A stretch of DNA of 35,000 bases from Betaproteobacteria bacterium. Lineage in GTDB: Bacteria > Pseudomonadota > Gammaproteobacteria > Burkholderiales > Thiobacillaceae. Within the stretch, counting starts at the first letter, position 1. Each line of letters starts with the position of its first letter. The stretch spans positions 1-35,000 of the forward strand of contig JAGUXX010000249.1 in the NCBI GenBank assembly GCA_020061585.1, read 5' to 3'. Under the pieces are notes generated by a model. It was not told where the DNA came from. It did no database searches and worked only from the letters and a program-made list of their open reading frames with translations. Below, in pieces: positions 3,721 through 30,254 of this stretch. Position numbers and translations under genes: made by a program.

Positions 3721-5385
3721 TCATGCCGACCGCCCGATCGCCAACGCCGGCGACAACTGCTTGCGAATGATCTTGGCGTTTTTGGTGCGCGGGAAATCGG
3801 CCGCCAGGTAGACGATCTTCGGCGCCTTGTAGCCGGCCAGATGCTCGCGGCCGAAGGCGGCCAGTTCATCGGCCGTCACGCTGGACCCCGGATGCAGCAT
3901 CACATATGCCACCACCAGCACCTTGTCGACGGCCAGTTCCTCCCCAGTTGCGGCGCAATCGGCGACTGCCGGATGGGTTTTCATGACCCGTTCGATCTCG
4001 TGCGGCGATACCCGGTAGCCGAAGGAATTGATGATGTCGTCGCGCCGGCCGAGAAACCAGATATAGCCGTCCGCGTCGAAACGGGCGTAATCGCCGGTGA
4101 GGAACCAGCGCTCCTTGAACGCCTTGCCGGTTTCCTCGGGCAGATTCCAGTAGCGCATGAACAGGCCGGGATCATCGGCCGGCAGGCAGATCATGCCCTC
4201 CTCGCCAGCCGCGACCTCGCGCAGAGTTTCCGGATCAAGCAGGCGCACATCGTGGCCGGGTTGCGGAAAGCCGGCGGATCCGGGGCGGATCGGCCGGAAC
4301 CTGTTTTCCGACAGGTAATAGGACACTTCCGACATGCCCACCGCTTCGTAGATTTCCACACCGAAACGGTCCTTCCACAGGCCCAGCATCTCGTCCGACA
4401 GGTGTTCGCCGGCGCTCATGCAATGCCGCAGGGTCGGCACGTCGCCGCCGGTGAAATTCGTTTTCTGGATGATCTGGCGGTAGATGGTCGGCACGCCGAT
4501 GAAGATCGTCGCGCTGTGCTTGGCGATCAGGCGTATCCAGCCATCGGCGTCGTTCTTGCCCTCATGCACGATCACCGTCTTGCCGCGATACAGCGGGTCC
4601 ATCAGGCCGGAGCCGAGCACATAGGTCCAGTTGAATTTGCCGGAATGCACGATGCGGTCGTGCCCGTCTTCCGCGAAGTCGAACCAGTATTGCGCCGCCG
4701 GTTCGCGGCCGATCATCGCCCGGTGCGCGTGCAGCACGCCTTTCGGGTAGCCGGTGGTGCCGGAGGTGTAGACCAGATAGGCCGGGTCGTGCGACTTGCT
4801 GTTGTGCGGCGGCGCGCAACTGCCGATTTCCTCCAGCTCGCTTTCCAGATCGCGCACCTCGATGCCGCTGGCCGGCAGCAATCCGCCTGGGCCGGTCAGC
4901 AACACGAAGCGCAAATGCGGCAACCCGACCAGTTTTTCGCGCAGGCCTTGCCACATCGCCTTGTCGGTGACCAGCACGCTGGCTTCGGAATCGCGCGCCA
5001 GATACACCACTTCCTCGGCGGTCAGCAAAGTTGAAGTCGGCACCGCGATCGCGCCGCGCTTCATCGCGCCAAGAAAAGCGGTGGGATAGGCCAGCGAATT
5101 GGGCAACCGGATCAGCACCCGTTCGCCCAGCGCCACGCCGAGATTGCGCAGCAACTGGGCAAACCGGGAAGTGGATTGCACCAGTTGCCGGTAGGTCGCG
5201 GTGGACACGCCCAGCGCATCGTCCTCGACGATCATCGCCAGCTTGTTTTCATTGGCGGTGCCCAGATGCGCATCGGTACAGGCCACGCCGATGTTGAAGT
5301 GCTCGGGCAACTGCCAGTTCCAGGCGGGAAGGGGTTGAAGGGGCATGGTGGACTCCAGCGAGGATAGGGATACGGGGGCGTTCAT
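3721..5385 (-). CDS. Acyl-CoA ligase, benzoate-CoA-ligase-like (AMP-forming)
   Basis: A 554-residue adenylate-forming enzyme that should activate a carboxylic acid to its CoA thioester through an acyl-AMP intermediate. The ATP/AMP motif YTSGTTGYPKG is at residues 206-216, the EAVGMSE motif lies mid-protein, WFLTGDYA and GRRDDIINSFGYRVSP mark the hinge, and the catalytic lysine is in TKNAKIIRK near residue 538. Overall it resembles the benzoate/2-aminobenzoate-CoA ligase group. The start at 5385 has GGAG eight bases upstream; a second ATG 13 codons later (5346) has an equally good GGAG and is a real alternative. Second gene of the operon, between two CoA-ester lyases. Context suggests a dicarboxylate such as mesaconate as substrate, but the sequence alone does not show it. 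Confidence 0.88.
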   Translation of the reverse strand: MNAPVSLSSLESTMPLQPLPAWNWQLPEHFNIGVACTDAHLGTANENKLAMIVEDDALGVSTATYRQLVQSTSRFAQLLRNLGVALGERVLIRLPNSLAYPTAFLGAMKRGAIAVPTSTLLTAEEVVYLARDSEASVLVTDKAMWQGLREKLVGLPHLRFVLLTGPGGLLPASGIEVRDLESELEEIGSCAPPHNSKSHDPAYLVYTSGTTGYPKGVLHAHRAMIGREPAAQYWFDFAEDGHDRIVHSGKFNWTYVLGSGLMDPLYRGKTVIVHEGKNDADGWIRLIAKHSATIFIGVPTIYRQIIQKTNFTGGDVPTLRHCMSAGEHLSDEMLGLWKDRFGVEIYEAVGMSEVSYYLSENRFRPIRPGSAGFPQPGHDVRLLDPETLREVAAGEEGMICLPADDPGLFMRYWNLPEETGKAFKERWFLTGDYARFDADGYIWFLGRRDDIINSFGYRVSPHEIERVMKTHPAVADCAATGEELAVDKVLVVAYVMLHPGSSVTADELAAFGREHLAGYKAPKIVYLAADFPRTKNAKIIRKQLSPALAIGRSA

Positions 5386-9396: not shown

Positions 9397-9845
9397 CCCG
9401 CAGCCCCGCTGGCACGCTTGTTCGCTGCGAAGCCGCCCTTGCTCTTCCAGCCTTCGATGCCGTCCTGCAGCACCTTAACGTTGTCCCAGCCCAGCAACCG
9501 CATGGCGAACACCGCCTGCGCGGATAGCGAGCCGCTGTTGCAGTAGATCAGCACCATCTTGTCTTGGGTGATTTCGGCGCGGCGGCCCGGAATCTTGCGC
9601 CATTCGATGTTGATCGCGCCGGGGATATGTTCCTTGGCGAACTGGGCCGCGTCGCGCGCGTCGATGACCAGAATGTTGTTCCAGTCTTCGGCCGGAATCT
9701 GCTCCGGCCAGATCAGGCTGGAACCGTATTCGGTGAAATCCATGTAGCCCTCGACGGCATCGGCGACCGCCGCGTCGTCAGAGGCCATGGCCGAACCGGA
9801 AAAGAGTGCCATGCCAAGCAGCAGGCCAATCAGAATTTTCGACAT
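9390..9845 (-). CDS. Periplasmic rhodanese-like sulfurtransferase
   Basis: A 151-residue secreted single-domain rhodanese. Residues 1-21 form a signal peptide (charged start, hydrophobic core, cleavage after AMA). The domain includes VIDARDAAQFAKEHIPGAINIEW and the active-site loop YCNSGSLSAQ with C102, followed by LQDGIEGW. It should carry persulfide sulfur on C102 in the periplasm. The start at 9845 follows AAGGAA by 7 bases; an earlier in-frame ATG 25 codons upstream would spoil the signal peptide. It lies beside the exporter and 115 bases downstream of a VTT-rhodanese gene in the same direction, so it may be part of that transcript. Confidence 0.9.
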   Translation of the reverse strand: MSKILIGLLLGMALFSGSAMASDDAAVADAVEGYMDFTEYGSSLIWPEQIPAEDWNNILVIDARDAAQFAKEHIPGAINIEWRKIPGRRAEITQDKMVLIYCNSGSLSAQAVFAMRLLGWDNVKVLQDGIEGWKSKGGFAANKRASGAAGH

Positions 9846-9959
9846 CGTGGATTCCTTGTGAATGTCAATGAAAGAGAAAGCGCCGGTATGGCTGGGGCCG
9901 CATAAGGTAGTTCGCTGCAAGGCTCGCTGCCATGGACCATCCGGACCAGACGCATACCG

Positions 9960-14843: not shown

Positions 14844-15962
14844 ATGACATTTACTCCATTGAGATTTCAATCCGCTCTGGCGTCGGGCGGCCTGGCGCTG
14901 ATGCCTTTCGTGTTGATGCAGTTCACGTTCCCGCACCAGGGAAAGATCATCAGCATCAACGACATTGCCAACTGGCACGATCTCGCGACGCTGTTTCTGG
15001 TTGCGGTGCTGCTGGTCAGCACCCTGCTGCATTTTTATCTCGTCGCCAAGCTGTCGTTGGAGTTCCTGCAATGGCGTAAATCCGCTGACGACATGCAAAC
15101 CTTCCTGGCGGACCCGGCAATGAATGTCGGCATTTTCTCGCCCGTCGTGGCGCTCGGCATGAGCGTCAATGTCGTGCTCGGCCCGGTGGCTTTTTTCATT
15201 CCGGATTTTGCACAGGCCGTGCCTGCGCTGCTCGGCTTTGGCATCTACCCCTTTGCCTTGCTGTTCCTGCTCCTCCTTTTCATGACGGTTGCCGTGGGCA
15301 AGACCTGGCTATTTCGTGATGGCAAGCCGATCGCCTTCAACTACAACTGGCTGCTCGACGTTTTCGCCTGGGGCATGGTGGCACTGGCCGGGTCCGGCGT
15401 AACCATGGCCGCCAATGACCCGCAAGTCGCATTGGCAGGAAGCGTCTTGACGTTATGTGCCATCAGCATTGGCCTGTTCATTTACGCGATCAAGGGCATC
15501 TATTTGATCGTGGCCCAGATGACCCATGGCAATACGCCGGCGGAGCCACTCAAACCGGCGCATTTCGTCGTGGTGCCGATCAACTGCCTGTTCGCCATTT
15601 CGATCTTCAAAATCGCCGATTACACGGAGCGCGCGCTGAGTATCGATATCACCGCACTCGCCTTCGCCTCGGTGGTCATCCTGTTTTCGCTGGCGCTATT
15701 CTGGATCGCACTGTGTGGTGTTGCCTTCAGGAATTGGTTTCGCCATCAATTCCCCAAGCCGGATTTCTACCCGTCGCAGTGGGGCCTGGTTTGCGTGCTG
15801 GTTGGATTGGAGGTGTTGGCGGTTTACAGCCATGTCAGCTACTACCCGTCGATTCTGTTGCTGGGCTTCGCGTACGCCAGCATTGCCGTCGCCAGCGCCG
15901 TTTATGGATTTGTATTCCTGAAATTCAGCGGTTTCATCAAGCCGCTGCCTGTCACGGTCTGA
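14844..15962 (+). CDS. Polytopic inner-membrane protein, possibly TDT/TehA-SLAC1-like
   Basis: A 372-residue protein that is almost all membrane: I count about ten hydrophobic segments, beginning SALASGGLALMPFVLMQF and ending VYGFVFLKFSGFI. Ten segments and this length fit the tellurite-resistance/dicarboxylate (TDT) transporter and SLAC1 anion-channel fold, whose members include a sulfite efflux pump. I see no diagnostic motif that proves this. It starts 70 bases after the TauE exporter and is followed by a small protein and a secreted DsrE, so a role in moving a sulfur anion is plausible. I have an unverified memory of TehA-like proteins encoded beside DsrE genes in sulfur bacteria. Confidence 0.8.
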   Translation: MTFTPLRFQSALASGGLALMPFVLMQFTFPHQGKIISINDIANWHDLATLFLVAVLLVSTLLHFYLVAKLSLEFLQWRKSADDMQTFLADPAMNVGIFSPVVALGMSVNVVLGPVAFFIPDFAQAVPALLGFGIYPFALLFLLLLFMTVAVGKTWLFRDGKPIAFNYNWLLDVFAWGMVALAGSGVTMAANDPQVALAGSVLTLCAISIGLFIYAIKGIYLIVAQMTHGNTPAEPLKPAHFVVVPINCLFAISIFKIADYTERALSIDITALAFASVVILFSLALFWIALCGVAFRNWFRHQFPKPDFYPSQWGLVCVLVGLEVLAVYSHVSYYPSILLLGFAYASIAVASAVYGFVFLKFSGFIKPLPVTV

Positions 15963-16042
15963 TGTTGTAGCTCATAGGGAAGCGTTGTTATGAGTCCACC
16001 CGCTTGTTGGAATGCCAGCAAGTCAGCAAGCAAGGAGAAACG

Positions 16043-16357
16043 ATGCAAATCAAAGTGATATCGCAACAACCGCCCGGTGGGCGCTGTACCCTTTACGCCG
16101 GCTATGCTGTCGCGCTTGCATGCCACCTGAAGGCCGAAGTCGATCTGCTATTCAGCAACCAGCGGGAAGCTCACGCTGAGGGCTACCCCAGCCTTTGGCT
16201 GAACGGTGCCGCCATTCAGCCCGATGATGGCGTGATCCTGATGCCGGCCGATATCCTCACGGCGCTAGCGGCGCTTGGTGTGCTGGAGGAGACCTTGCCG
16301 GGTTTGGCGGAAGCCCTGGAAGCGCCTTTGGACCGCATGCTTGAAGCGGAAGGTTAA
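16043..16357 (+). CDS. Small unknown cytoplasmic protein in the sulfur island
   Basis: A 104-residue protein I do not recognise. It begins MQIKVISQQPPGGRCTLYAGYAVALACHL, with two cysteines at residues 15 and 27, then an alternating strand/loop section PSLWLNGAAIQPDDGVILMP and a helical acidic C-terminus. The glycine-rich loop followed by a cysteine at the start of a helix recalls small thioredoxin-like or SelW-like redox proteins, but this is only an impression. ATG 16043 has AAGGAGA close upstream. It lies between the polytopic membrane protein and a secreted DsrE protein, so it probably shares their sulfur-related role. Confidence 0.75.
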   Translation: MQIKVISQQPPGGRCTLYAGYAVALACHLKAEVDLLFSNQREAHAEGYPSLWLNGAAIQPDDGVILMPADILTALAALGVLEETLPGLAEALEAPLDRMLEAEG

Positions 16358-16460
16358 ATCATCAACAGCACGTTTTGACTTTGCTTCGCCAGTCATGCTG
16401 GCGGGGTTTTCGCCTGGCGCAATCCGGGATATTTTGTTTTTCAAACCAAGGAGTTTCACC

Positions 16461-16958
16461 ATGAACCTGTCACGTATCGCACTGTTTTCCGTCCTGATGT
16501 TTTCCCTTGTCCTTGGTTTCAGTGCTTCCGCGGCCGAACTGGATGACCGGCACGCGCTCGAAGGCGTGAAGACCGGCAAGGCCGTTTTCGACATCGCCAG
16601 CGGCAATCCCAAAGCCATCGTCACCATTCTGGGCATCGTCGACGAGACTATTGATGGCTTGAAGCAGCAGGGCGTCGAACCGCACATCGTGGTTGCGTTT
16701 CGTGGGCCGGCGGTCAGGTTTTTGAGCAGCGACAGCGCTGTGATTCCCCCGGAACATGCCGCCACGGCGATGGAACTTGCGGATCGTGTCGAACAGTTGG
16801 CCGCGCGTGGCGTGCGGGTGGAAGCCTGTGGCATCACCACACGCATGATGAAAATCGACCCGGCCAAGCTGATCAAGGGCGCGCACCCGGTCGCCAACAC
16901 CTTTAATTCACTGATCGGCTACCAGACCAAGGGCTATGCGCTGATTCCGGTGTTTTAA
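16461..16958 (+). CDS. Secreted DsrE-family protein
   Basis: A 165-residue protein with a clear signal peptide (residues 1-24, cleavage at ASA-AEL) and a DsrE-like domain: AVFDIASGNPKAIVTILGIVDETIDGL, HIVVAFRGPAVRFLSS, and a single cysteine C123 in VRVEACGITTRMM. Periplasmic DsrE proteins of this type are common beside sulfur-oxidation genes and probably bind sulfane sulfur. AAGGAG lies seven bases before the ATG. A longer upstream frame exists but would hide the signal peptide. It is the third DsrE-like protein of the island and the only exported one. Confidence 0.9.
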   Translation: MNLSRIALFSVLMFSLVLGFSASAAELDDRHALEGVKTGKAVFDIASGNPKAIVTILGIVDETIDGLKQQGVEPHIVVAFRGPAVRFLSSDSAVIPPEHAATAMELADRVEQLAARGVRVEACGITTRMMKIDPAKLIKGAHPVANTFNSLIGYQTKGYALIPVF

Positions 16959-17040
16959 ACCTGGCTTTTATAAAACCGTCATCGTGATGGCGCGGTCTCT
17001 CCGACGTTGGTTGTCGGTAGACCGAGAAGATGCGGACTAA

Positions 17041-17169
17041 TTGATCTACGACCTGAGGCAGGTATTGATTGCTTACGGCCATGATCGGTTGCACTACCTG
17101 GAGTCAGCGGTGGACCACGGTCGCTGCGCGCTGCTCGCCAACCATGTGCCCGAACGGCACGCAGCGTGA
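17041..17169 (+). CDS. Possible 42-residue small protein ahead of the cysteine desulfurase
   Basis: A frame with a TTG start encodes 42 residues (IYDLRQVLIAYGHDRLHYLESAVDHG type composition, ending VPERHAA) and stops at 17169. Its TGA overlaps a GTG by GTGA that is in frame with the cysteine desulfurase, a pattern typical of translational coupling. The amino-acid composition looks protein-like but I recognise no family, and there is only a weak GAGAAG before the TTG. It could be a chance frame or a remnant of a longer gene. Confidence 0.3.
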   Translation: MIYDLRQVLIAYGHDRLHYLESAVDHGRCALLANHVPERHAA

Positions 17170-17207
17170 CTTCGCCCACAGACCAAAATCTGGATTCCCG
17201 ACAAACC

Positions 17208-18359
17208 ATGACCGACACGCCGATCTACCTCGATTACAACGCCACCACACCCATCGACCCGCGTGTGGTCGAGGCCATGCTGCCATTCCTGCGTGCGCAC
17301 TTCGGCAATCCGTCGTCGGATCATGTTTATGGTCGGCGGGCGAAGGCGGCGGTGGCCAACGCGCGCGACGAAGTGGCGGCGTTGATTGGCGCTCAGCCGG
17401 ACGAAATCGTGTTCACCAGTTGCGCCACCGAGGCCAACAACCTGGCCATCCTTGGCGTGGCGCGGGCATTGCAGGGCGGTAGCCGTGACCGACTGTTGTA
17501 TTCCGCCGTCGAACATCCCGCCGTGGCGCAGCCGATGCGGCATCTGGCCGGGGCGGGCTGGCGAGTCGAAACGATCCCGGTGGATGCAAGCGGCCGGGTC
17601 GACGTTGCACAAGCCACCGCACAAATTGCCCATGGCACCGACGTCGCCCTGGTTTCCGTGATGCTGGCCAACAACGAGGTGGGCACGCTGCAACCGGTGG
17701 CCGAAATCGCCACCCATGCACGTGCGGCGGGCGCGCTGATGCATGTCGACGCGGCGCAGGCGGTCGGCAAGATTGCGGTGGACGTGAATGAACTGGGCTG
17801 TGATCTGCTGACGCTGGCCGGGCACAAGTTCTACGCGCCGAAAGGCGTCGGCGCGCTGTATGTGCGTGCCAGCACGCCGATTCAATCCATCCAGTTCGGC
17901 GCCAGCCACGAACGCGGCCTGCGCCCCGGCACCGAGAACGTGCCGCACCTCGTCGCGCTGGGCGAGGCGGCACGTTTGGCGCGACTGGAACTTGAGGTGG
18001 AATCCGCGCGCATCCAGGCGCTGCGCGATGATCTGCATCGCCGCCTGGCCGATGCCATTCCCGGCTTGCTGCTGAACGGACATGCGAGCGAACGGCTGCC
18101 CAACACACTGCATGTTTCCTTCCCCGCCGTCGCCGGCTGGCAATTGCTCGCCGCCACGCCGGACCTGGCCGCCTCAACCGGTTCCGCCTGCCATGCCGAT
18201 CAACATGCCGCCAGCGGCGTGCTGGGCGCGATGGGGTTTTCCGGCGCGCGCGCCGCCGGAGCCGTGCGCCTGTCTCTCGGCCGCTTCAGTACGGCAAAGG
18301 AAATCGCCGAAGCCGCCGCCGTGCTGATCATGGCCTGGCGGCGCCTGGTCTCGCCATGA
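17208..18359 (+). CDS. Cysteine desulfurase (NifS/IscS type)
   Basis: A 383-residue PLP enzyme that removes sulfur from cysteine and holds it as a persulfide. It starts IYLDYNATTPIDPRVVEAMLP, has SCATEANNLAILG and EHPAV near residue 103, the PLP lysine K207 in AGHKFYAPKG, ERGLRPGTENVPHLV, and the catalytic C328 in STGSACHADQ. The long loop with a GSAC motif places it with the NifS/IscS group. ATG 17208 is used here; a GTG at 17166, overlapping the preceding small frame, would add 14 residues. It overlaps the methyltransferase start by ATGA. It closes the sulfur island, where it could feed persulfide to the rhodanese/DsrE proteins, or serve Fe-S assembly. Confidence 0.92.
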   Translation: MTDTPIYLDYNATTPIDPRVVEAMLPFLRAHFGNPSSDHVYGRRAKAAVANARDEVAALIGAQPDEIVFTSCATEANNLAILGVARALQGGSRDRLLYSAVEHPAVAQPMRHLAGAGWRVETIPVDASGRVDVAQATAQIAHGTDVALVSVMLANNEVGTLQPVAEIATHARAAGALMHVDAAQAVGKIAVDVNELGCDLLTLAGHKFYAPKGVGALYVRASTPIQSIQFGASHERGLRPGTENVPHLVALGEAARLARLELEVESARIQALRDDLHRRLADAIPGLLLNGHASERLPNTLHVSFPAVAGWQLLAATPDLAASTGSACHADQHAASGVLGAMGFSGARAAGAVRLSLGRFSTAKEIAEAAAVLIMAWRRLVSP

Positions 18360-19139: not shown

Positions 19140-20480
19140 TCAGATGTTTCCCGGCGATTCGACCCCACGCTGAATCTCCAGCCGCTTCATCTTTTCCCAC
19201 AACGTTTTACGGCTGATGCACAACAGTTTGGCGGTGTCCTGCACGCGCCAGTCGTTGGCTTCCAGCGCGCGCTGGATGTAGCCGCGCTCCTGGTTGGCGA
19301 TCCAGTCGCCCAGCGCCAGATCGGGGGTGTCGCCGGTCTCCGGCGGGCTGTCGTCGAACAGCAGTTCGGGCGTGATCAGCGGTTGCCGCGCCAGCACCCG
19401 CGCGCGCTCGATGACGTGCTTCAGTTGCCGGACATTGCCCGGCCAGGGGTGAGTCAGCAACTGGCGTTCGGCCGCCGGCGACAGCATGCGCGGCGGTTCA
19501 TTGACGCTGCCGGTCGCGCCGCCGCGCGCCAGAAAGCGGCGCGCCAGCCACAGGATGTCCTCGTGTCGCTCGCGCAATGGCGGCACCCGCACCTGGATGA
19601 CATGGATGCGGTAATACAGGTCTTCCCGGAACTGGCCTTGTTCAACCTTGAGTCTGAGGTCTTGATGGGTGGCGGCCATCAGGCGGAAATCGACCGGTAT
19701 ATCGCCGCCGCCACCCAGACGGCGGATCTGTCGGGTTTGCAGCGCGCGCAGCAGTTTGGCCTGCATCGCGGCCGGCATGTCGCCGATTTCATCGAGGAAC
19801 AGCGTGCCGCCGTCGGCTTGTTCCAGCAGGCCGGATTTGGCGCTGGCGGCGCCGGTATAAGCGCCCTTTTCATGGCCGAACAATTCCGTCTCCATCAAGG
19901 CTTCCGGCAGCGCCGCGCAGTTGATCGCGACGAAGGGTCGCGGCTCTCGGTGACGCAGACTGTGCAGGCGCAGCGCCACCACTTCCTTGCCGACCCCGGA
20001 TTCACCGGTGATCAGCACCGAGGTGTCGCTTGAGGCCAGTCGCCGCAGCAAATCCTCGATGCCGCGCATGGCCGGTGAAATGCCCAGGCTATCCAGGCCG
20101 GCATCGGTTTCGCCGCACGCCTCCAGCGCGTGCAATTTCGCCAGCAGCAGTTCAGGCTCGAACGGCTTGGTCAGGTAATCCACCGCGCCCAGCTTGAGCA
20201 GGCGCACCGCCTGATCGACCGAGCCGTGACCAGTCATGAAAATGAACGGCGGCAGTTTCACGCCTTCTTCCAGCAACGTGGTGTAGATCGCCTCGCCGCT
20301 GGTGCGCGGCAGCAGGATGTCGCTCAGCACCATGTCGTACGGCGTTTTGCGCAGGGCGGCGAGCGCGGCGCGGCCGGACTTGAACCAGTCGCAGCTATAG
20401 CCTTCCAGTTCCAGGCGCAGCGCCAGCGGGCCGCCCATGATTTCGTCATCCTCGATCAGACACAGGCGTTTGGCGGCCAT
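19140..20480 (-). CDS. Sigma-54-dependent response regulator (NtrC family)
   Basis: A 446-residue activator. Residues 1-120 are a receiver with phospho-acceptor D54 (MVLSDILLP), T83 and K105. Residues 135-365 are the sigma-54 AAA+ domain: Walker A GESGVGKE (159-166), GAYTGA (206-211, the tyrosine form of GAFTGA that contacts sigma-54), Walker B LFLDEIGD and arginine fingers in REDLYYRI. Residues 395-435 are a Fis-type HTH (DTAKLLCISRKTLWEKMKRL). The start at 20480 has AAGGAG seven bases upstream and overlaps the kinase gene by 25 bases. Third gene of a binding-protein/kinase/regulator operon. Its probable target is the sigma-54 promoter at 22989. Confidence 0.95.
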   Translation of the reverse strand: MAAKRLCLIEDDEIMGGPLALRLELEGYSCDWFKSGRAALAALRKTPYDMVLSDILLPRTSGEAIYTTLLEEGVKLPPFIFMTGHGSVDQAVRLLKLGAVDYLTKPFEPELLLAKLHALEACGETDAGLDSLGISPAMRGIEDLLRRLASSDTSVLITGESGVGKEVVALRLHSLRHREPRPFVAINCAALPEALMETELFGHEKGAYTGAASAKSGLLEQADGGTLFLDEIGDMPAAMQAKLLRALQTRQIRRLGGGGDIPVDFRLMAATHQDLRLKVEQGQFREDLYYRIHVIQVRVPPLRERHEDILWLARRFLARGGATGSVNEPPRMLSPAAERQLLTHPWPGNVRQLKHVIERARVLARQPLITPELLFDDSPPETGDTPDLALGDWIANQERGYIQRALEANDWRVQDTAKLLCISRKTLWEKMKRLEIQRGVESPGNI

Positions 20481-21934
20481 GCGCTTTCTCCTTGCGGCAA
20501 GGTGACGCGGAAACGGGTGTGACCATCGCGGCTTTCCACGTCGATGCGGCCCCGCAGTTGTTCGACGATCTGGTGCGTCACCCACAGACCGAGGCCATGC
20601 CCTTCTTCGTTGTGACCGGTGAAAGGCTCGAACAGGTGCTTCATCAACTCGGCCGGAATCGCCGCGCCGTCGTTTTCCACTTCCAGGACCAGGTCCCGCT
20701 CGCCACCGACGCAGCGCACCGTGACCTGGCCGGCCTGGCCGGCCTGGCCGGCGGCCTGCAACGCATTCAGCACCAGATTGATCAGCACTTGGCGCAGCAG
20801 GGTTGCGGGCAACCGGCAGGCATCGCCGGCGCGGTTATCCCAGGTCCAATCGATGTCGCGCTTCCTGGCTTCCGGCGCGAGCAGGGTCTGCACATCATCG
20901 ATGTCCCGCGCGAGTAGCGGACGGCTTCTGCCCTTGGTCTCGACCAACAGGGCGGCGACGATGTCGCGGATCTGCGCCAGGCCGCGTTCCAGGTAAGGCA
21001 GGAAACGATCCAGCACCGGGTCGCGCGCGGCGTGGAGCTTGACGGTATCCAGCGAGGTGATCAGGCCGCCCAAGGGATTGTTGATCTCGTGGGCAATGCC
21101 GGCCGACAGTCGGCCCAACGCGGCGAGGCGGTCGGCCTTGACCATGCGTTGTTCCAGCGCGGTCTTTTCGGTCATTTCGGCAAGCATGCGCTCATAGGCC
21201 AGGAACAAGCGTCCCAGCTCGTCGCGGTAGGGGTAGTCGTGGCTGAGCGAGGAAGCGGGATCGTGTTTGCCGAGTGCATCCATGCGCTCCGCCAGACGCC
21301 CGACCGGCGCCGCCATGCGCCGGCCCCAGTACCAGTTGATCGGCAGCAGCACGGAAAGCACCAGGCCGCTGATCAGCAGCGCGCGCCAGGCCAGTTGACG
21401 AAAGCGCGGCCAGTAGAAGCCGGCCGGATGCACCAGCAGCAGATGGCCGATACCGACCTCGTCAGAGATCATCGGTAGCGCCAACAAAATGACATCGTCG
21501 GCTTCCAGCAGCACGGCGCTGGCTTCCGGCACGGCCCGCAACCTGGCTTCCAGTTGCGCATAGCTCGGGCCAAGCCGCGCCAGCGGCGTGCGCATCGGCC
21601 AGCCATCCGGTTGGCTGGAGACAAACACCGCATGCGCGGCATCCAGCAGGATCAAGCCTTCGGCGCGGAACGAGGCGGGTGTGGCGGCTTCGCTGAACGG
21701 CGCGCGGACGATTTCGTAGGCGCGCCAGACATCGTCATGCAACATCGGCGTGTACAGGGTCTTGACCAGCACGCGGCCGAGATTGTCGGAATGCGCCAGC
21801 ATGTCGCGCTTCAGGTTGTCATAGGCCTGCAGCATGAAGGACAAGGTCAAGGTCAACGCGACGGCGGCAATCAGTACGCTGCCCCAGAGCGGAATCTTGT
21901 AGCGGAAGCTGAGATCAAAAACGCGCAGCGTCAT
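20456..21934 (-). CDS. Membrane histidine kinase partnered with the NtrC-type regulator
   Basis: A 492-residue sensor kinase. Transmembrane segments lie at about 14-36 and 183-204, enclosing a periplasmic sensor of about 145 residues with no recognised fold. A HAMP-like linker follows (APVGRLAERMDALGKHD), then the dimerisation helix with H282 in LSAGIAHEINNPLGG, and the ATPase domain with NLVLNALQAA (N box), LEVENDGAAI (G1) and GHGLGLWVTHQIV (G2). A 9-bp tandem repeat around 20728-20756 encodes AGQAGQAGQ between N and G1 boxes and may vary in length. The start at 21934 has only AAGCAAG upstream; the gene overlaps its upstream neighbour by 20 bases, so coupling probably drives translation. Confidence 0.93.
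   Translation of the reverse strand: MTLRVFDLSFRYKIPLWGSVLIAAVALTLTLSFMLQAYDNLKRDMLAHSDNLGRVLVKTLYTPMLHDDVWRAYEIVRAPFSEAATPASFRAEGLILLDAAHAVFVSSQPDGWPMRTPLARLGPSYAQLEARLRAVPEASAVLLEADDVILLALPMISDEVGIGHLLLVHPAGFYWPRFRQLAWRALLISGLVLSVLLPINWYWGRRMAAPVGRLAERMDALGKHDPASSLSHDYPYRDELGRLFLAYERMLAEMTEKTALEQRMVKADRLAALGRLSAGIAHEINNPLGGLITSLDTVKLHAARDPVLDRFLPYLERGLAQIRDIVAALLVETKGRSRPLLARDIDDVQTLLAPEARKRDIDWTWDNRAGDACRLPATLLRQVLINLVLNALQAAGQAGQAGQVTVRCVGGERDLVLEVENDGAAIPAELMKHLFEPFTGHNEEGHGLGLWVTHQIVEQLRGRIDVESRDGHTRFRVTLPQGESAWPPNACV
20728..20756. repeat. Short 9-bp tandem repeat inside the histidine kinase gene
   Basis: About three copies of a GCCTGGCCG-type 9-mer lie in the ATPase domain of the kinase and encode repeated AGQ triplets. 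In-frame copy-number change would only lengthen or shorten a loop. Confidence 0.6.
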
Positions 21935-22781
21935 CTTGCTTGGCGGCGGCTTGCGCCATCCGTTCGACCTCGCTGTACAGGCCCGCGTCGCCGGGCACGA
22001 AACCATCCAGATGCAGTCTGGCAAGAATTCCCCGGCCCTGCGCATTCTGATGCATCTCCGTCAGCACCCGACGCAACGTCTGGAAGGTCTTTTCCGGCAA
22101 ATTGTTCACCGCAACCAACGGTGGAAAGCCGAACTCCCGCGAACGATTGACGATGCGCGTGGCGCTGGTCAGGCGTGGCTCCTCCCGCGCCAGGGCGTCC
22201 CAGACATAACTCTCCACCGCCGCGCCGTCGGCCAGATGCTGCGCCACCGCTTCGATCGCCTTGCGGTGCGACCAAGTAAAAAAGGTCCGGCCAAAGAAGG
22301 TCTTGGGCGATTTCCCCAATGTGGTCAACACGTGGCGCGGAAACAGATAGCCGGTGTGGGAATATGGATCGGCATAGGCGAACACCTTGCCTTCCAGGTC
22401 GGCGATGGAGCGGCTGCGCGTGTCGCGGGCGGGCACGATCAAATAGGAACGGTAGAGCGGCCGGCCATCCTTCAATGGCGTGACCAGCAGGCGAACCCAA
22501 GGTTTCATCAGCACATAGGGGTAGTCGGAAAGCCAGGCGATGTCCAGCCGTTGCTGCTTGATCAGGTCCATGGTGTCGCTGTAGCTGTCGCGCAGCACGA
22601 AGCGCACCGGGACACCAAGCCGCGCTTCCAGATAAGTCTGCCAGTCGGCAAGCAGGGCATGTCGCTCATGCAACAGCGTCGGCGTCAGCCCGATGCGTAG
22701 TGGGGTTGCTTTGCCGCCGGCGCGAGATGGCGAAGAAAACAGCAACAAGCTGCTCAAGGCAATGAATTCGCGTCTGTGCAT
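21915..22781 (-). CDS. PhnD-like periplasmic binding protein, sensor component
   Basis: A 288-residue secreted protein of the PhnD / type 2 periplasmic-binding family. It has a signal peptide with a MHRREF start (possible Tat or Sec), then LRIGLTPTLLHERHALLADWQTYLE, the binding segment LDIAWLSDYPYVLM, and ADPYSHTGYLFPRH, typical of phosphonate/phosphite-type binding proteins. AGGAGA precedes the ATG at 22781. There is no ABC permease or ATPase nearby; the gene instead overlaps a histidine kinase gene, so it probably presents a ligand to that kinase. In tetrathionate sensors of the TtrS type a PhnD-like domain is fused to the kinase, so a sulfur oxyanion is one candidate ligand. Confidence 0.9.
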   Translation of the reverse strand: MHRREFIALSSLLLFSSPSRAGGKATPLRIGLTPTLLHERHALLADWQTYLEARLGVPVRFVLRDSYSDTMDLIKQQRLDIAWLSDYPYVLMKPWVRLLVTPLKDGRPLYRSYLIVPARDTRSRSIADLEGKVFAYADPYSHTGYLFPRHVLTTLGKSPKTFFGRTFFTWSHRKAIEAVAQHLADGAAVESYVWDALAREEPRLTSATRIVNRSREFGFPPLVAVNNLPEKTFQTLRRVLTEMHQNAQGRGILARLHLDGFVPGDAGLYSEVERMAQAAAKQDDAARF

Positions 22782-22816: not shown

Positions 22817-22832
22817 GTTACGAGATTGTAAC
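22817..22832. promoter_or_regulatory. Activator site 1: GTTAC-N6-GTAAC
   Basis: A perfect 5-bp inverted repeat with a 6-base spacer, extended by CG on both sides, lies 35 bases from the binding-protein start codon on the minus strand. It is the first of three such sites in the divergent gap and the farthest from the sigma-54 promoter (about 190 bases before its predicted start point). Confidence 0.65.
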
Positions 22833-22858
22833 GTCGCATCGTTGCAGGCACACCATGA

Positions 22859-22874
22859 GTTACATCTTCGTAAC
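22859..22874. promoter_or_regulatory. Activator site 2: GTTAC-N6-GTAAC
   Basis: A second perfect copy, centred 42 bases (four helical turns) from site 1. The equal phasing suggests that bound dimers line up on one face of the DNA, as needed for oligomer assembly by an NtrC-type activator. Confidence 0.65.
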
Positions 22875-22909
22875 CTGATCTGGCGTTTGCGCCGATCTCC
22901 CTTGTCCGC

Positions 22910-22925
22910 GTTACGAAGTTGTGAC
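22910..22925. promoter_or_regulatory. Activator site 3: GTTAC-N6-GTGAC
   Basis: Third copy with one changed base, centred 51 bases from site 2 and about 97 bases upstream of the predicted sigma-54 start point. This distance is usual for an enhancer-type activator site. Confidence 0.6.
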
Positions 22926-22988
22926 GCCAACGCCGACGAAGGCCCGACATTCAGCTAATACCCATTCAAATACAAATGGATACGTTCA

Positions 22989-23004
22989 TGGCGCAGAGAT
23001 TGCT
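22989..23004 (+). promoter_or_regulatory. Sigma-54 (-24/-12) promoter for the Crp/Fnr-type gene
   Basis: TGGCGCAGAGATTGCT fits the sigma-54 consensus TGGCACG-N4-TTGCW with the invariant GG (22990-22991) and GC (23002-23003) at exactly the right spacing and only A5 and G7 changed. Transcription would start near 23015, 20 bases before the ATG at 23035. Three inverted-repeat activator sites lie upstream, and a sigma-54 activator gene is encoded across the gap. Confidence 0.75.
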
Positions 23005-23034
23005 ATAGGCCTCTCACGCAACCGGAACACCGTC

Positions 23035-23736
23035 ATGAACCCGTTTTCGATTTCCCAACCCAGAGTTCACGAGATCATCAGCCGACTGGATTATTTCCGC
23101 GGACTGAGTGCGGAAACCCAGCATCATCTGGCCGCCGCCGCGCGGCACGTTCAGATTCGCCGCGACACCCCGGTGTTCTTCAAGGGAGCTCCCGCCGACA
23201 CGCTGCATATCGTGGTCAGTGGTCAGATCAAGGTTTATATGTCACAGGCCAATGCGGCGGAAAAAGTCGTCGCCCTGGTCGACCATGGCGAAAGCTTCGG
23301 GGTCGCGGCGCTCTGGTTGGGCGAAGCGCATATGGCGAATGCGGTCGCCAACAAGGATAGCCATCTGCTGACCCTGGATCGTTATGTATTGCTGCGCGAA
23401 GCCCGCCAGGATTGCGTTCTGGCCGGCCGTTTGATGGACGCCGTATCGCGCCGGGTGATGGATCTGATGCGCAACCTGGAAAGCTGCTCGCCGAAATCGG
23501 CGCAACAGCGGATTGCCTGTTACCTGTCGCAACGCCGACCGCAAGCGGCGCAAACCCATTACGAAGTGCAGCTTCCGGCCGCCAAGCAGGAGGTCGCCAC
23601 CAAACTGAACCTGACCCCGGAAACGTTCTCCCGCGTCCTCCGCCAGTTGGCGAACGCGGGAATCATCGAAGTGCAAGGGCGCTGCATTCGCGTATTGGCG
23701 GCGGAACGCCTGACAACGCTGAATGCCGGCGTGTAA
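23035..23736 (+). CDS. Crp/Fnr-family transcriptional regulator
   Basis: A 233-residue regulator with an N-terminal cyclic-nucleotide-binding-like sensor domain (about 15-125: FFKGAPADTLHIVVSGQIKVYM, GESFGVAALWLG) and a C-terminal winged helix (about 155-222) whose recognition helix LTPETFSRVLRQL keeps the ExxSR of FNR-type proteins. There is no N-terminal cysteine cluster, so it is not an iron-sulfur FNR; a haem or unliganded DNR-like mode is possible. The ATG at 23035 lies 20 bases downstream of a predicted sigma-54 start point. An upstream frame extension crosses the promoter and is rejected. It probably activates the cytochrome gene that follows after 152 bases, but I find no convincing FNR box there. 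Confidence 0.9.
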   Translation: MNPFSISQPRVHEIISRLDYFRGLSAETQHHLAAAARHVQIRRDTPVFFKGAPADTLHIVVSGQIKVYMSQANAAEKVVALVDHGESFGVAALWLGEAHMANAVANKDSHLLTLDRYVLLREARQDCVLAGRLMDAVSRRVMDLMRNLESCSPKSAQQRIACYLSQRRPQAAQTHYEVQLPAAKQEVATKLNLTPETFSRVLRQLANAGIIEVQGRCIRVLAAERLTTLNAGV

Positions 23737-23888
23737 CCGCCTTGAACCCGGCAATAGTTGACAAAATTACTTGGTCTTGGTGATCGAAGATAAGTTTTGT
23801 GTGCGTGGCGGTAAGGGTTTGTCTTGTCTCCATTTACCCTGCATTGCGGCGGAAAGATGTACCGACTGATCAACACGAGGAGACATTG

Positions 23889-26552: not shown

Positions 26553-28685
26553 TCAACTTGTGATGCGTCTGTAGATATCGGATACCTTGAACGGCAACTG
26601 GCGTACATCGTCGAGAATGATGTAGCGGGCCGCGCCATACATATGCGGCAGGTAATCGCGCGCTTCACGGTCGATGGTAATACAAAATGGATGCACACCG
26701 GAACGGCGTGCTTCAAGCAAGGCCATACGCGTGTCCTCGATGCCGTATTGACCACGATAAACATCGAAATAATCATCCGGCCGGCCATCCGACAGCGTCA
26801 CCAGCACTCGGGTGCGCGCTTCGACCTTGTTCAGCAGCCCGGTCAAGTGACGAATGGCGAAGCCCATGCGAGTGTATTCCTGGGCGCGGATGCCGGAAAT
26901 GCGCGCCTTCACCACGTCGTTGTAGGGCTCGTCGAACTCCTTGATGCGGTACAGCTCGCAGCGTTTGCGCGTGGTGCCGGAGAAACCGTAGATCGCATAG
27001 CGGTCGCCCAGCCGTTGCAGCGCCTCGCACAGCAGCACCAGCGCTTCGCGCTCGGCTTCGTTGATCCAGCCTTTGGTGCTGCCGCTCATGTCGACCATGA
27101 AGGCCACGGCGATGTTGCGCTCGGCGCGGTGCTGGCGCACGAACAGGCGATCCGACATCTCGCTGCCGTCCTTGGCATCCGCCAGCGCTTCCACCAGCGC
27201 GTCGATATCGACTTCATCGCCATAGGCCTGGCGTTTGAGCAGCCGGTTTTCGTCGCGCATGGCCTCGAAGGCGTGACGCAAGTGCTTGACCAGACCGGCG
27301 TGTTTTTCCAGCGTCTCACGGTGAAAGTTGTCGAATACCGGCGGCACGTCTTTCTCTCGCATCACGCACCAGTTCTTGCGGTAATGCTGGCGGCCCATGT
27401 CCCACTCGGGATAGAACAGCGCGCCTTCCTCATGATAGGTGCCTTGCCAGACCGCATCCGGATCGGCCTGCACATCATGCAGCAGGCTGGCGTCATACTC
27501 GCCATCGCCGGCCGGCACCAGGTATTCGGGGGGAATCTCGCCGAAATCGAGGAACACCGAGGCCATCAGTTGCCGCACATCGTCCGGCGGCGCCAGCGGC
27601 ATGCCGTCGAGCGTCAACTCCATGTCCATGCGGCCTTCGTCGTCGTTGATCTCGGCTTCGAAGGCTCCCGGATTCCGCTCCGCTGCATCCGGGCTACGCG
27701 GTTTATGACGCTCATGTTCTTCCAGCAACTCCGCCAGTTTGACGCGCAGCCGCGCCTTTTCCTTTTCCTGGCGCGCGGCAAAAGCGATGGCCACCGCGTC
27801 CGGACGCAGTTCGCCCTGATAGCACCAAGGCTGGAAGTCGGGCAGATGGTAGGCGTCGCCCAGCAATTTGACGCTGTCCTCGATGCTGGCCTCCGGTTCG
27901 GCCAGACGCTGGGCGAAACCTTCCCAGCCCGCCGGCAAACCTTCGCCGAGCGCGGTTTTCAGCCGTTCCATGTCGCGGTGCAAGCCGGGCAGTTCGCGCG
28001 CGATACACGCCGTCAGACGCAGCGTTTCCAGCGCGTTCAACTGATGCATCGCCCGGTCCGGCTGCGGAAAACCGGCGCAACTGGCAATCAGATCGGCGCG
28101 GTAGGTGCCGAAGCGGGTCTGCGCCCACAGCAAAGCAACGATGGCTTTCGCCAGCTTGAAGTTGTCTTCGGCGCTGGGCAGCCGCGCGATCACCGCCGGC
28201 AAATACAGCTTCTCGGTGTTGGTGTGGATCGATTCGGCCTGCGCGATGCTCAGCTTGCGGCCGGACAAGCCGCGCACGAAGTTGCCCAGCACGCCGGCCA
28301 CCTCGTCGAACATCACGCCGGCGGTCAGTTCAAGCTGCTTATTGGCCAGATTCGCGGCAAAGCTTTCCACCTGCTCGATGGCCTGCAGCGCGACACGCAA
28401 ACCCAACTGGTCATAGGCGTCGCAGGCATACACCGCCCAGGCTTCGACCTGGCGCATGCCCATGCGGGCGAGCAGTTTCGGCGCCCGTTTGCCGAACTGC
28501 CAGCCGAGTTCCAGATGCGTGCTGGCGATACGCTTGACCCAGGACAGGATGAAGTCGCAGTCTTCGTCGGACAACCCCGCCAGTTCGACGGACAAGTCCG
28601 CGACCTTGTGGAAAGTCAGGTCGGCCTCCAGCCATTCTTCGAGTAGCGCATAGATCGCGTCGGCGCTGCGGGTATTGGCGGTCAT
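26553..28685 (-). CDS. cbbO: CbbO/NorD-type VWA-domain protein
   Basis: A 710-residue protein with a C-terminal von Willebrand A domain. The metal-ion-dependent adhesion site FMVDMSGSTKG is near residue 530, with TLSDGRPDDYFD later in the fold. The N-terminal 500 residues are helical and typical of CbbO/NorD. With its AAA+ partner CbbQ it acts as a chaperone or activator that remodels metalloenzymes: CbbQO activates RuBisCO, and NorQD supports nitric oxide reductase maturation. Neither target is in this window, so either role is possible; CbbO is favoured because the partner resembles CbbQ. The ATG lies three bases after the VapC stop codon, so in this strain it depends on read-through from cbbQ through the toxin-antitoxin genes or on a promoter within them. 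Confidence 0.85.
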   Translation of the reverse strand: MTANTRSADAIYALLEEWLEADLTFHKVADLSVELAGLSDEDCDFILSWVKRIASTHLELGWQFGKRAPKLLARMGMRQVEAWAVYACDAYDQLGLRVALQAIEQVESFAANLANKQLELTAGVMFDEVAGVLGNFVRGLSGRKLSIAQAESIHTNTEKLYLPAVIARLPSAEDNFKLAKAIVALLWAQTRFGTYRADLIASCAGFPQPDRAMHQLNALETLRLTACIARELPGLHRDMERLKTALGEGLPAGWEGFAQRLAEPEASIEDSVKLLGDAYHLPDFQPWCYQGELRPDAVAIAFAARQEKEKARLRVKLAELLEEHERHKPRSPDAAERNPGAFEAEINDDEGRMDMELTLDGMPLAPPDDVRQLMASVFLDFGEIPPEYLVPAGDGEYDASLLHDVQADPDAVWQGTYHEEGALFYPEWDMGRQHYRKNWCVMREKDVPPVFDNFHRETLEKHAGLVKHLRHAFEAMRDENRLLKRQAYGDEVDIDALVEALADAKDGSEMSDRLFVRQHRAERNIAVAFMVDMSGSTKGWINEAEREALVLLCEALQRLGDRYAIYGFSGTTRKRCELYRIKEFDEPYNDVVKARISGIRAQEYTRMGFAIRHLTGLLNKVEARTRVLVTLSDGRPDDYFDVYRGQYGIEDTRMALLEARRSGVHPFCITIDREARDYLPHMYGAARYIILDDVRQLPFKVSDIYRRITS

Positions 28686-28688
28686 GGG

Positions 28689-29435
<747 letters not shown>

Positions 29436-29441
29436 CAGCGA

Positions 29442-30254
29442 TCAGAACAACGACGAAGACAACTCCTGAATCGCCGCCAGCATGTCGCCGTCATCGGTGA
29501 CCGCCTGCGCCACCGCGCTGCGGCAGGCGGTCACTGGATCGATACCGCCCTTGATCAGCTTGCCGGCATGCACCAGCAGACGCGTCGAGGCGCCCTCCTC
29601 CAGGCCGCTGCCTTTCAGGTTGCGCGTCATCTGGGCGAACTTCACCAGTTTTTCGGCCAGCGCCAGATCGACGCCGGATTCGTTGGCGACGATCTTGCGT
29701 TCCAGCTCGGCCACCGGGTAGTCGAATTCCAGCGCGACGAAGCGTTGCCGGGTGGATTGCTTGAGGTCCTTCAACACGCTCTGGTAACCCGGGTTGTAGG
29801 AAATCGCCAGACAGAAATCGTCGGAGGCTTCCAGCAACTGGCCGAGCTTTTCCATCGGCAGCGTACGGCGGTCGTCGGCCAGCGGATGGATCACCACCAT
29901 GGTGTCCTTGCGCGCTTCGACGATCTCGTCCAGATAGCAGATACCACCGACCCGGACCGCGCGGGTCAACGGGCCATCGATCCAGACGGTTTCGCCACCC
30001 TTGACCAGATAACGTCCGACCAGATCGGAGGCCGTCAGATCGTCATGGCAGGAAACGGTAATCATCGGCCGCTTGAGGCGCCAGGCCATGTATTCCATGA
30101 ACCGGGTCTTGCCGCAGCCGGTGGGGCCTTTCAGCAACACCGGCAGCTTGTGCTTGTAGGCCGCTTCGAAGATGGCGATTTCGTTGCCGACCGCCTCGTA
30201 ATACGGTTCTTTCCGGATGTAATGTTCTTCGGGAGCAAGGGATAGTGCGTTCAA
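29442..30254 (-). CDS. cbbQ: CbbQ/NorQ-family MoxR AAA+ ATPase
   Basis: A 270-residue AAA+ protein of the CbbQ/NirQ/NorQ group. Walker A is GPTGCGKT (43-50), Walker B is ICYLDE (105-110); SASDLVG-like [27 protein letters not shown] and [30 protein letters not shown] match CbbQ closely. With CbbO it forms a remodelling complex. There is no suitable ATG: the start is TTG 30254, supported by GGAG seven bases upstream and the family's normal N-terminus. It is followed after 49 bases by a toxin-antitoxin pair that separates it from CbbO. No RuBisCO gene is in the window. Confidence 0.9.

Follow-up and report, generated by a model that had tools for sequence, protein, structure and literature searches.

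A sigma-54-type control region probably linking an AioX-family sensing module to a Crp/Fnr regulator gene beside a multihaem cytochrome

The window, as the whole 35,000-nucleotide stretch analysed is called here, carries an intergenic control region flanked by two divergently oriented sets of genes (Table 1). One is an operon in which a periplasmic binding protein (X), a sensor kinase (S) and a response regulator of NtrC type (R) are encoded together, the XSR arrangement known from arsenic oxyanion systems (PMC5908839). The other consists of a Crp/Fnr-family regulator gene (crp) and, 152 bp further on the same strand, a gene for a multihaem cytochrome. Among solved structures, X is closest to AioX (E 2.8e-50) and ArrX (1.7e-35), followed at a distance by PtxB, the best phosphite binder (1.2e-11). 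A role of X as a phosphonate or selenate uptake protein was rejected, as the protein is an AioX relative with S, R, crp and the cytochrome as neighbours. The sequence-only reading had proposed that the divergent operon encodes a sigma-54 activator of the GAYTGA type. This motif is present in R, and the assignment is very probably right. The form is a minority one, with Y in 3 of 100 R sequences and F in 96. Nine of the twelve positions of the R stretch LGISRKNLWEKM are identical in at least 90% of 100 R (duplicates included). Its gene content identifies the operon as a sensing module of the AioX family with three genes; this had been overlooked, and it alters what the circuit probably senses.

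Table 1. Features of the control region and the genes around it (window positions).
Feature	Coordinates	Strand	Remarks
R, NtrC-type sigma-54 response regulator, GAYTGA	19140..20480	-	PF00072, PF00158, PF02954; helix ISRKTLWEKM; start selected within ORF 19140-20585
S, HAMP/HisKA sensor kinase	20456..21934	-	start selected within ORF 20456-22045
X, AioX-family periplasmic binding protein	21915..22781	-	PF12974; best PDB relatives AioX 6esv, ArrX 6x6b
Operator site 1, GTTACGAGATTGTAAC	22817..22832	.	perfect match; same sequence in G014
Operator site 2, GTTACATCTTCGTAAC	22859..22874	.	perfect match; 42 bp from site 1; pair conserved in relatives
Operator site 3, GTTACGAAGTTGTGAC	22910..22925	.	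one mismatch (GTTAC-N6-GTGAC); 51 bp from site 2
Sigma-54 (-24/-12) promoter box, TGGCGCAGAGATTGCT	22989..23004	+	TGGCGC-N5-TTGCT; GG-N10-GC; in G014 as TGGCGCGGGAATTGCA
Crp/Fnr-family regulator gene (putative target)	23035..23736	+	PF00027, PF13545
Candidate second-tier dyad CTTGG-TGAT-CGAAG in the crp-cytochrome intergenic stretch	23776..23789	.	in an island conserved in G014, there as CTTCG-TGAT-CGAAG; speculative
Multihaem c-type cytochrome, 635 aa	23889..25796	+	7 CXXCH + 1 CX3CH; lipobox-like start by eye

Three GTTAC-N6-GTAAC inverted repeats had been described upstream of crp. All three lie where they were placed and the distances claimed between their centres agree with those measured, but only two are perfect. 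The variant form of the third is shared with the relative G014, and G022 has a similar third site. Measured upstream from the -12 GC of the promoter box, the centres are at distances of 85, 136 and 178 bp; the earlier figure of 97 to 190 bases matches an inferred +1 as the reference point. The window contains three matches at up to one mismatch, whereas 100 shuffles of it gave 0.17 on average and never three. A scan of the whole genome, which had been suggested as a check, gave 32 sites at this tolerance versus 105 with a reversed control pattern, so a lone one-mismatch site carries no weight genome-wide. Perfect sites number only five, two in the window and three on contig C43. The evidential weight of the window sites derives from their pairing, position and conservation.

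The promoter box was also found as announced, with GG at -24 and GC at -12 separated by ten bases, except that the spacer between its conserved blocks is N5 and not N4. It ends 30 bases before the crp ATG, and rpoN is present in the genome. A second exact TGGCRC-N5-TTGCW occurs at 17458 on the plus strand, so the box alone is nothing special here. Both elements resemble those of characterized arsenic systems. For AioR, the consensus GTT-N10-AAC and a footprint over GTTCGGATTTCCGAAC have been reported (PMC5335332), and the RpoN promoter of NT-26 aioB is TGGCACAACGATTGCA (PMC6011840). The window sites fit the AioR consensus and the window box fits the aioB promoter, the GTT-N10-AAC sites lying upstream of the RpoN-type promoter.

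Conservation was followed at two levels. A scan of an 84,980-species genome collection with an X alignment gave 97 confirmed places; the 80 of them that were listed fall in Thiobacillus and other Hydrogenophilales, Rhodocyclales, Sulfuricella, Sedimenticola and others. Together with loci from the genus and family, and with duplicates dropped, these 80 form a training set of 93 non-redundant X, 92 of which could be used for counting sites (one locus with a short flank was dropped). Between -600 and +60 of X, a site at up to one mismatch occurs in 85 of the 92 loci, against 0.68 expected from shuffles, and a perfect one in 65. Among 46 further X kept as a hold-out (8 duplicates dropped), 36 have sites; no site was found within the searched span at 7 of the 92 training loci and 10 of the 46 hold-out loci. 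Training sites less than 80 bp apart fall into spacing classes of 33-34 (7 cases), 40-44 (54), 51-53 (15) and 62 bp (1), with none in between, as helical phasing would give. The comb is less tidy in the hold-out, where spacings of 22-23 (2), 31-35 (9), 38 (1), 40-45 (16) and 90-91 bp (3) were counted. Sigma-54 boxes scoring at least 5 within 220 bp beyond the sites are present at 58 of the 84 XSR loci (out of 93) that this test could use, versus 1.4 in shuffles.

In 23 genomes of the genus, all 11 strict pairs of sites (in 9 genomes) are 41-42 bp apart, even though a range of 32-61 bp was allowed; the reversed control gave none. Across 399 genomes of the order, nine have a strict pair, and eight of these nine are among the 39 X-encoding genomes (Fisher p 3.5e-8, relatedness not corrected). 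In one order genome, G325, a strict pair with 34-bp spacing (L204, 8976-9025) has no relative of X or R in the 17 kb fetched. Two other pairs lie away from X, one after R on C43 and one in G056 before a PhsA-like gene. Chance as the origin of the sites was ruled out by the shuffles, the strict-pair counts in the genus and the enrichment at XSR loci.

The sites occur on 13 of 13 Crp-bearing stretches of the genus with X and/or its R, and on none of the 8 fetched stretches carrying a Crp homologue without X; among these 8, L074 does encode a sigma-54 regulator, though a more distant one. They also accompany X and R where no Crp gene is near. This speaks against the repeats being sites of another regulator, for instance the Crp/Fnr protein itself, next to a fortuitous sigma-54 box. 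Inverted repeats of 16 bp would suit other dimeric regulators too and the box alone is not rare, but the spacing of the sites fits an enhancer-binding protein, and such an explanation is very improbable. The control region is real, and the view that activator, sites and promoter belong to one unit, already put forward from the sequence, is strongly supported by the comparison: they are conserved over the 93 XSR loci, co-occur with X and are missing at Crp genes without it, in a genome that has rpoN.

The idea of a closed circuit found no support. The promoter points to crp only, and between 22701 and 23300 no sigma-54 box is aimed back at the XSR operon (best score 2.0), so that the DNA itself shows only a one-way circuit. 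Some relatives do have such a box: opposite-strand sigma-54 boxes at 20 of the 84 loci are second boxes aimed at X, in other clades. These likely reflect autoregulation, which is absent from the window. They were seen at L139, L141, L149, L157, L158, L164, L170, L180 and others, in many cases together with one additional site 350-590 bp upstream of X.

The arrangement suggests a mechanism in which the periplasmic X would pass its signal to the kinase S, and phosphorylated R would bind the phased GTTAC-N6-GTAAC sites and activate the promoter of the Crp/Fnr gene, presumably with RpoN. The Crp/Fnr protein would then probably form a second tier that acts on the neighbouring multihaem cytochrome gene. 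We hold with good confidence that the region is the target promoter of a three-component system of the AioXSR kind driving the Crp/Fnr gene, with this probable second tier. In this reading, a relative of the arsenic-sensing systems probably acts via sigma-54 to turn on a further regulator, which is encoded next to a multihaem cytochrome.

In comparison, AioXSR of Rhizobium NT-26 and Agrobacterium GW4, which controls aioBA and mcp, likewise combines an AioX-family protein, a kinase and a sigma-54 regulator, and has the operator GTT-N10-AAC and an RpoN-type promoter in common with the window (PMC5335332, PMC6011840). In the window, however, the output is a Crp/Fnr gene with a multihaem cytochrome, Cys106 is replaced by Ser and no arsenite oxidase adjoins. 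ArxXSR and ArrXSR have the same module, and many loci of the set adjoin ArxA/ArrA-like enzymes with the same operator, whereas the window lacks a molybdoenzyme; control of arx by ArxXSR is described as not yet demonstrated (PMC6549141, PMC6683785). TspS-TspR of Acidithiobacillus caldus (sox-II) is also a sigma-54-dependent two-component control, there of a sulfur oxidation operon, but its activator site is TGTCCCAAATGGGACA and not GTTAC-N6-GTAAC (PMC6335251); because of this different site, TspR-type sox control of the window was rejected. The thiocyanate dehydrogenase cluster of Thioalkalivibrio thiocyanoxidans pairs a sigma-54 regulator and a kinase with fccAB; the kinase is GAF-type, and the accessible text describes neither an AioX-type protein nor a GTTAC-N6-GTAAC operator (PMC5744179). 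Neither an XSR-Crp relay nor a Ser-type AioX was found reported in the literature searched, most subscription journals lying outside its reach. By its sequence, the window system would work like AioXSR, yet it lacks two features that define the arsenic systems, Cys106 and an adjacent arsenic enzyme.

AioX binds arsenite via Cys106 (PMC5908839). In the window X this position is Ser85, and the position of AioX Asp210 is Glu. The Cys106 column holds Cys in 88 of the 93 X and Ser in five, those of the window, G014 (L058), L064, L114 and L202. The substitutions in the window X suggest that this protein no longer senses arsenite. An ordinary arsenic-responsive XSR, whose X would still bind an arsenic oxyanion despite Ser85 and whose cytochrome would serve arsenic redox chemistry, is unlikely but deserves mention: AioX and ArrX are the closest relatives of X, ArrX binds arsenate, which shows that the family is not restricted to arsenite (PMC5908839), and an AioA locus equipped with a separate X is found elsewhere in the genome, on contig C170. 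Both pocket changes argue against it, as does the gene content, since no window ORF of at least 120 aa fell into any molybdoenzyme cluster, whether that of AioA, of ArxA/ArrA or another. The cytochrome matches solved structures weakly (multihaem cytochrome 6qvm, E 3.7e-4), and among the loci compared only G014 has a relative (84%). The X of G014, also with Crp and this same cytochrome, is the closest to the window X, followed by those of G022 (Crp and a PhsA-like gene), of an ArxA/ArrA-like locus and of a locus with Crp, FccAB and PhsA-like genes.

Genes beside XSR vary widely across the loci. They include ArxA/ArrA-like, PhsA-like or TtrA-like enzymes, two further molybdopterin enzymes and AioA, as well as multihaem cytochromes (decahaem proteins among them) and Crp with FccAB and/or a PhsA-like enzyme. 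In the training set, multihaem genes, taken as ORFs with at least five CXXCH within 6.5 kb of X, are near 4 of the 5 X without the Cys and 15 of the 88 with it (p 0.006); this rule was fixed after the association had been noticed in that set, and it may count genes outside the operon. In the hold-out, the figures are 5 of 5 (four Ser, one Thr) versus 4 of 41 (p 9e-5), where L255 is closely related to L114 in the training set. On the tree, non-Cys X correspond to three changes only, two of them with multihaem neighbours (L064 has lost Cys and has no multihaem gene), and the sign test on independent pairs gave a median p of 0.5; so few changes do not establish a link that is independent of relatedness. 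A Ser at the Asp210 position accompanies TtrA-like or Mo45 enzymes in 14 of 16 training loci versus 3 of 77, largely in one clade. From these comparisons, pocket and output tend to shift together while the operator stays. At L114, L212, L255, L264 and L265, a non-Cys X lies beside an octahaem and a decahaem cytochrome; the octahaem protein of L114 also matches the cytochrome b561 domain.

Control of the cytochrome by Crp is an inference and the weakest step of the explanation, because the window and G014 lack the TTGAT-N4-ATCAA box beside crp and have in its place the conserved island CTTSG-TGAT-CGAAG. At up to one mismatch, 14 of 25 homologous loci have such a box on a flank of crp (0.67 expected). 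In seven relatives, a TTGAN-N4-NTCAA box starts about 15 nt after crp, ahead of enzyme genes, and in others it is upstream of crp; the XSR-linked Crp/Fnr gene of relatives adjoins genes for FccAB and/or a PhsA-like enzyme. R might instead control crp alone, or crp and the cytochrome as one sigma-54 transcript, with Crp acting elsewhere. The short distance between the two genes on one strand and the absence of any Fnr-type box between them in the window favour this absence of a cascade. It is nevertheless the less probable course, about one chance in three by our judgement, as the adjacency of Crp and cytochrome and the dyad island are kept in G014 and the seven relatives place their box just ahead of the enzyme genes. 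As a regulon marker the dyad CTTSG-TGATCGAAG was rejected: the other exact copy in G014 falls within an ORF, and each search for one-mismatch copies, in five genomes, gave scattered hits.

Returning to the proposed relay, a broader idea can be offered tentatively, at somewhat less than even confidence. XSR may be a general plug-in sensing module in which the operator is fixed while pocket and output change together; with loss of the Cys, multihaem conduits would replace molybdoenzymes, in Thiobacillaceae through a Crp/Fnr relay, and the window would be an independent case whose ligand is not thiolate-bound. If true, GTTAC-N6-GTAAC would be a genome-readable marker of a widespread oxyanion-type sensor family and of the respiratory genes under its control, among them several molybdoenzymes and multihaem conduits that have no assigned substrate. 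Through the Cys-to-Ser switch, the specificity of the sensor becomes directly accessible to a binding experiment, and the Crp relay, if right, is an example of one sensing module wired to a second regulatory tier.

The genome also contains a paralogous circuit on C43. Here X, S and R are accompanied by two sites with a spacing of 41 bp, a box weaker than that of the window and a Crp paralogue (53% identity), after which come a cytochrome and an FccB-like gene (assigned by reading). At this locus (L046, G000 contig C43, 1552-10880), X is of the Cys type, PstS-like and chemoreceptor-like genes precede the XSR-Crp circuit, and a further perfect site lies at 4086, near the start of X. The locus on C170 (L108, 2909-14392 of that G000 contig) has an AioA-cluster gene, one full X (from 10775 on) and one partial X (9557-9946). 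Its sites are ATTAC-type variants, which possibly insulate the AioA locus from its paralogues. Elsewhere in the window, a VWA-domain protein and a CbbQ/NirQ/NorQ-type AAA protein are encoded on one strand at 26553-30254, a pair that we take to be of the kind activating rubisco or NO reductase. A SLAC1-type channel, a DsrE-like protein and a NifS-like cysteine desulfurase are encoded close together at 14844-18359, and this clustering suggests a sulfur-handling neighbourhood.
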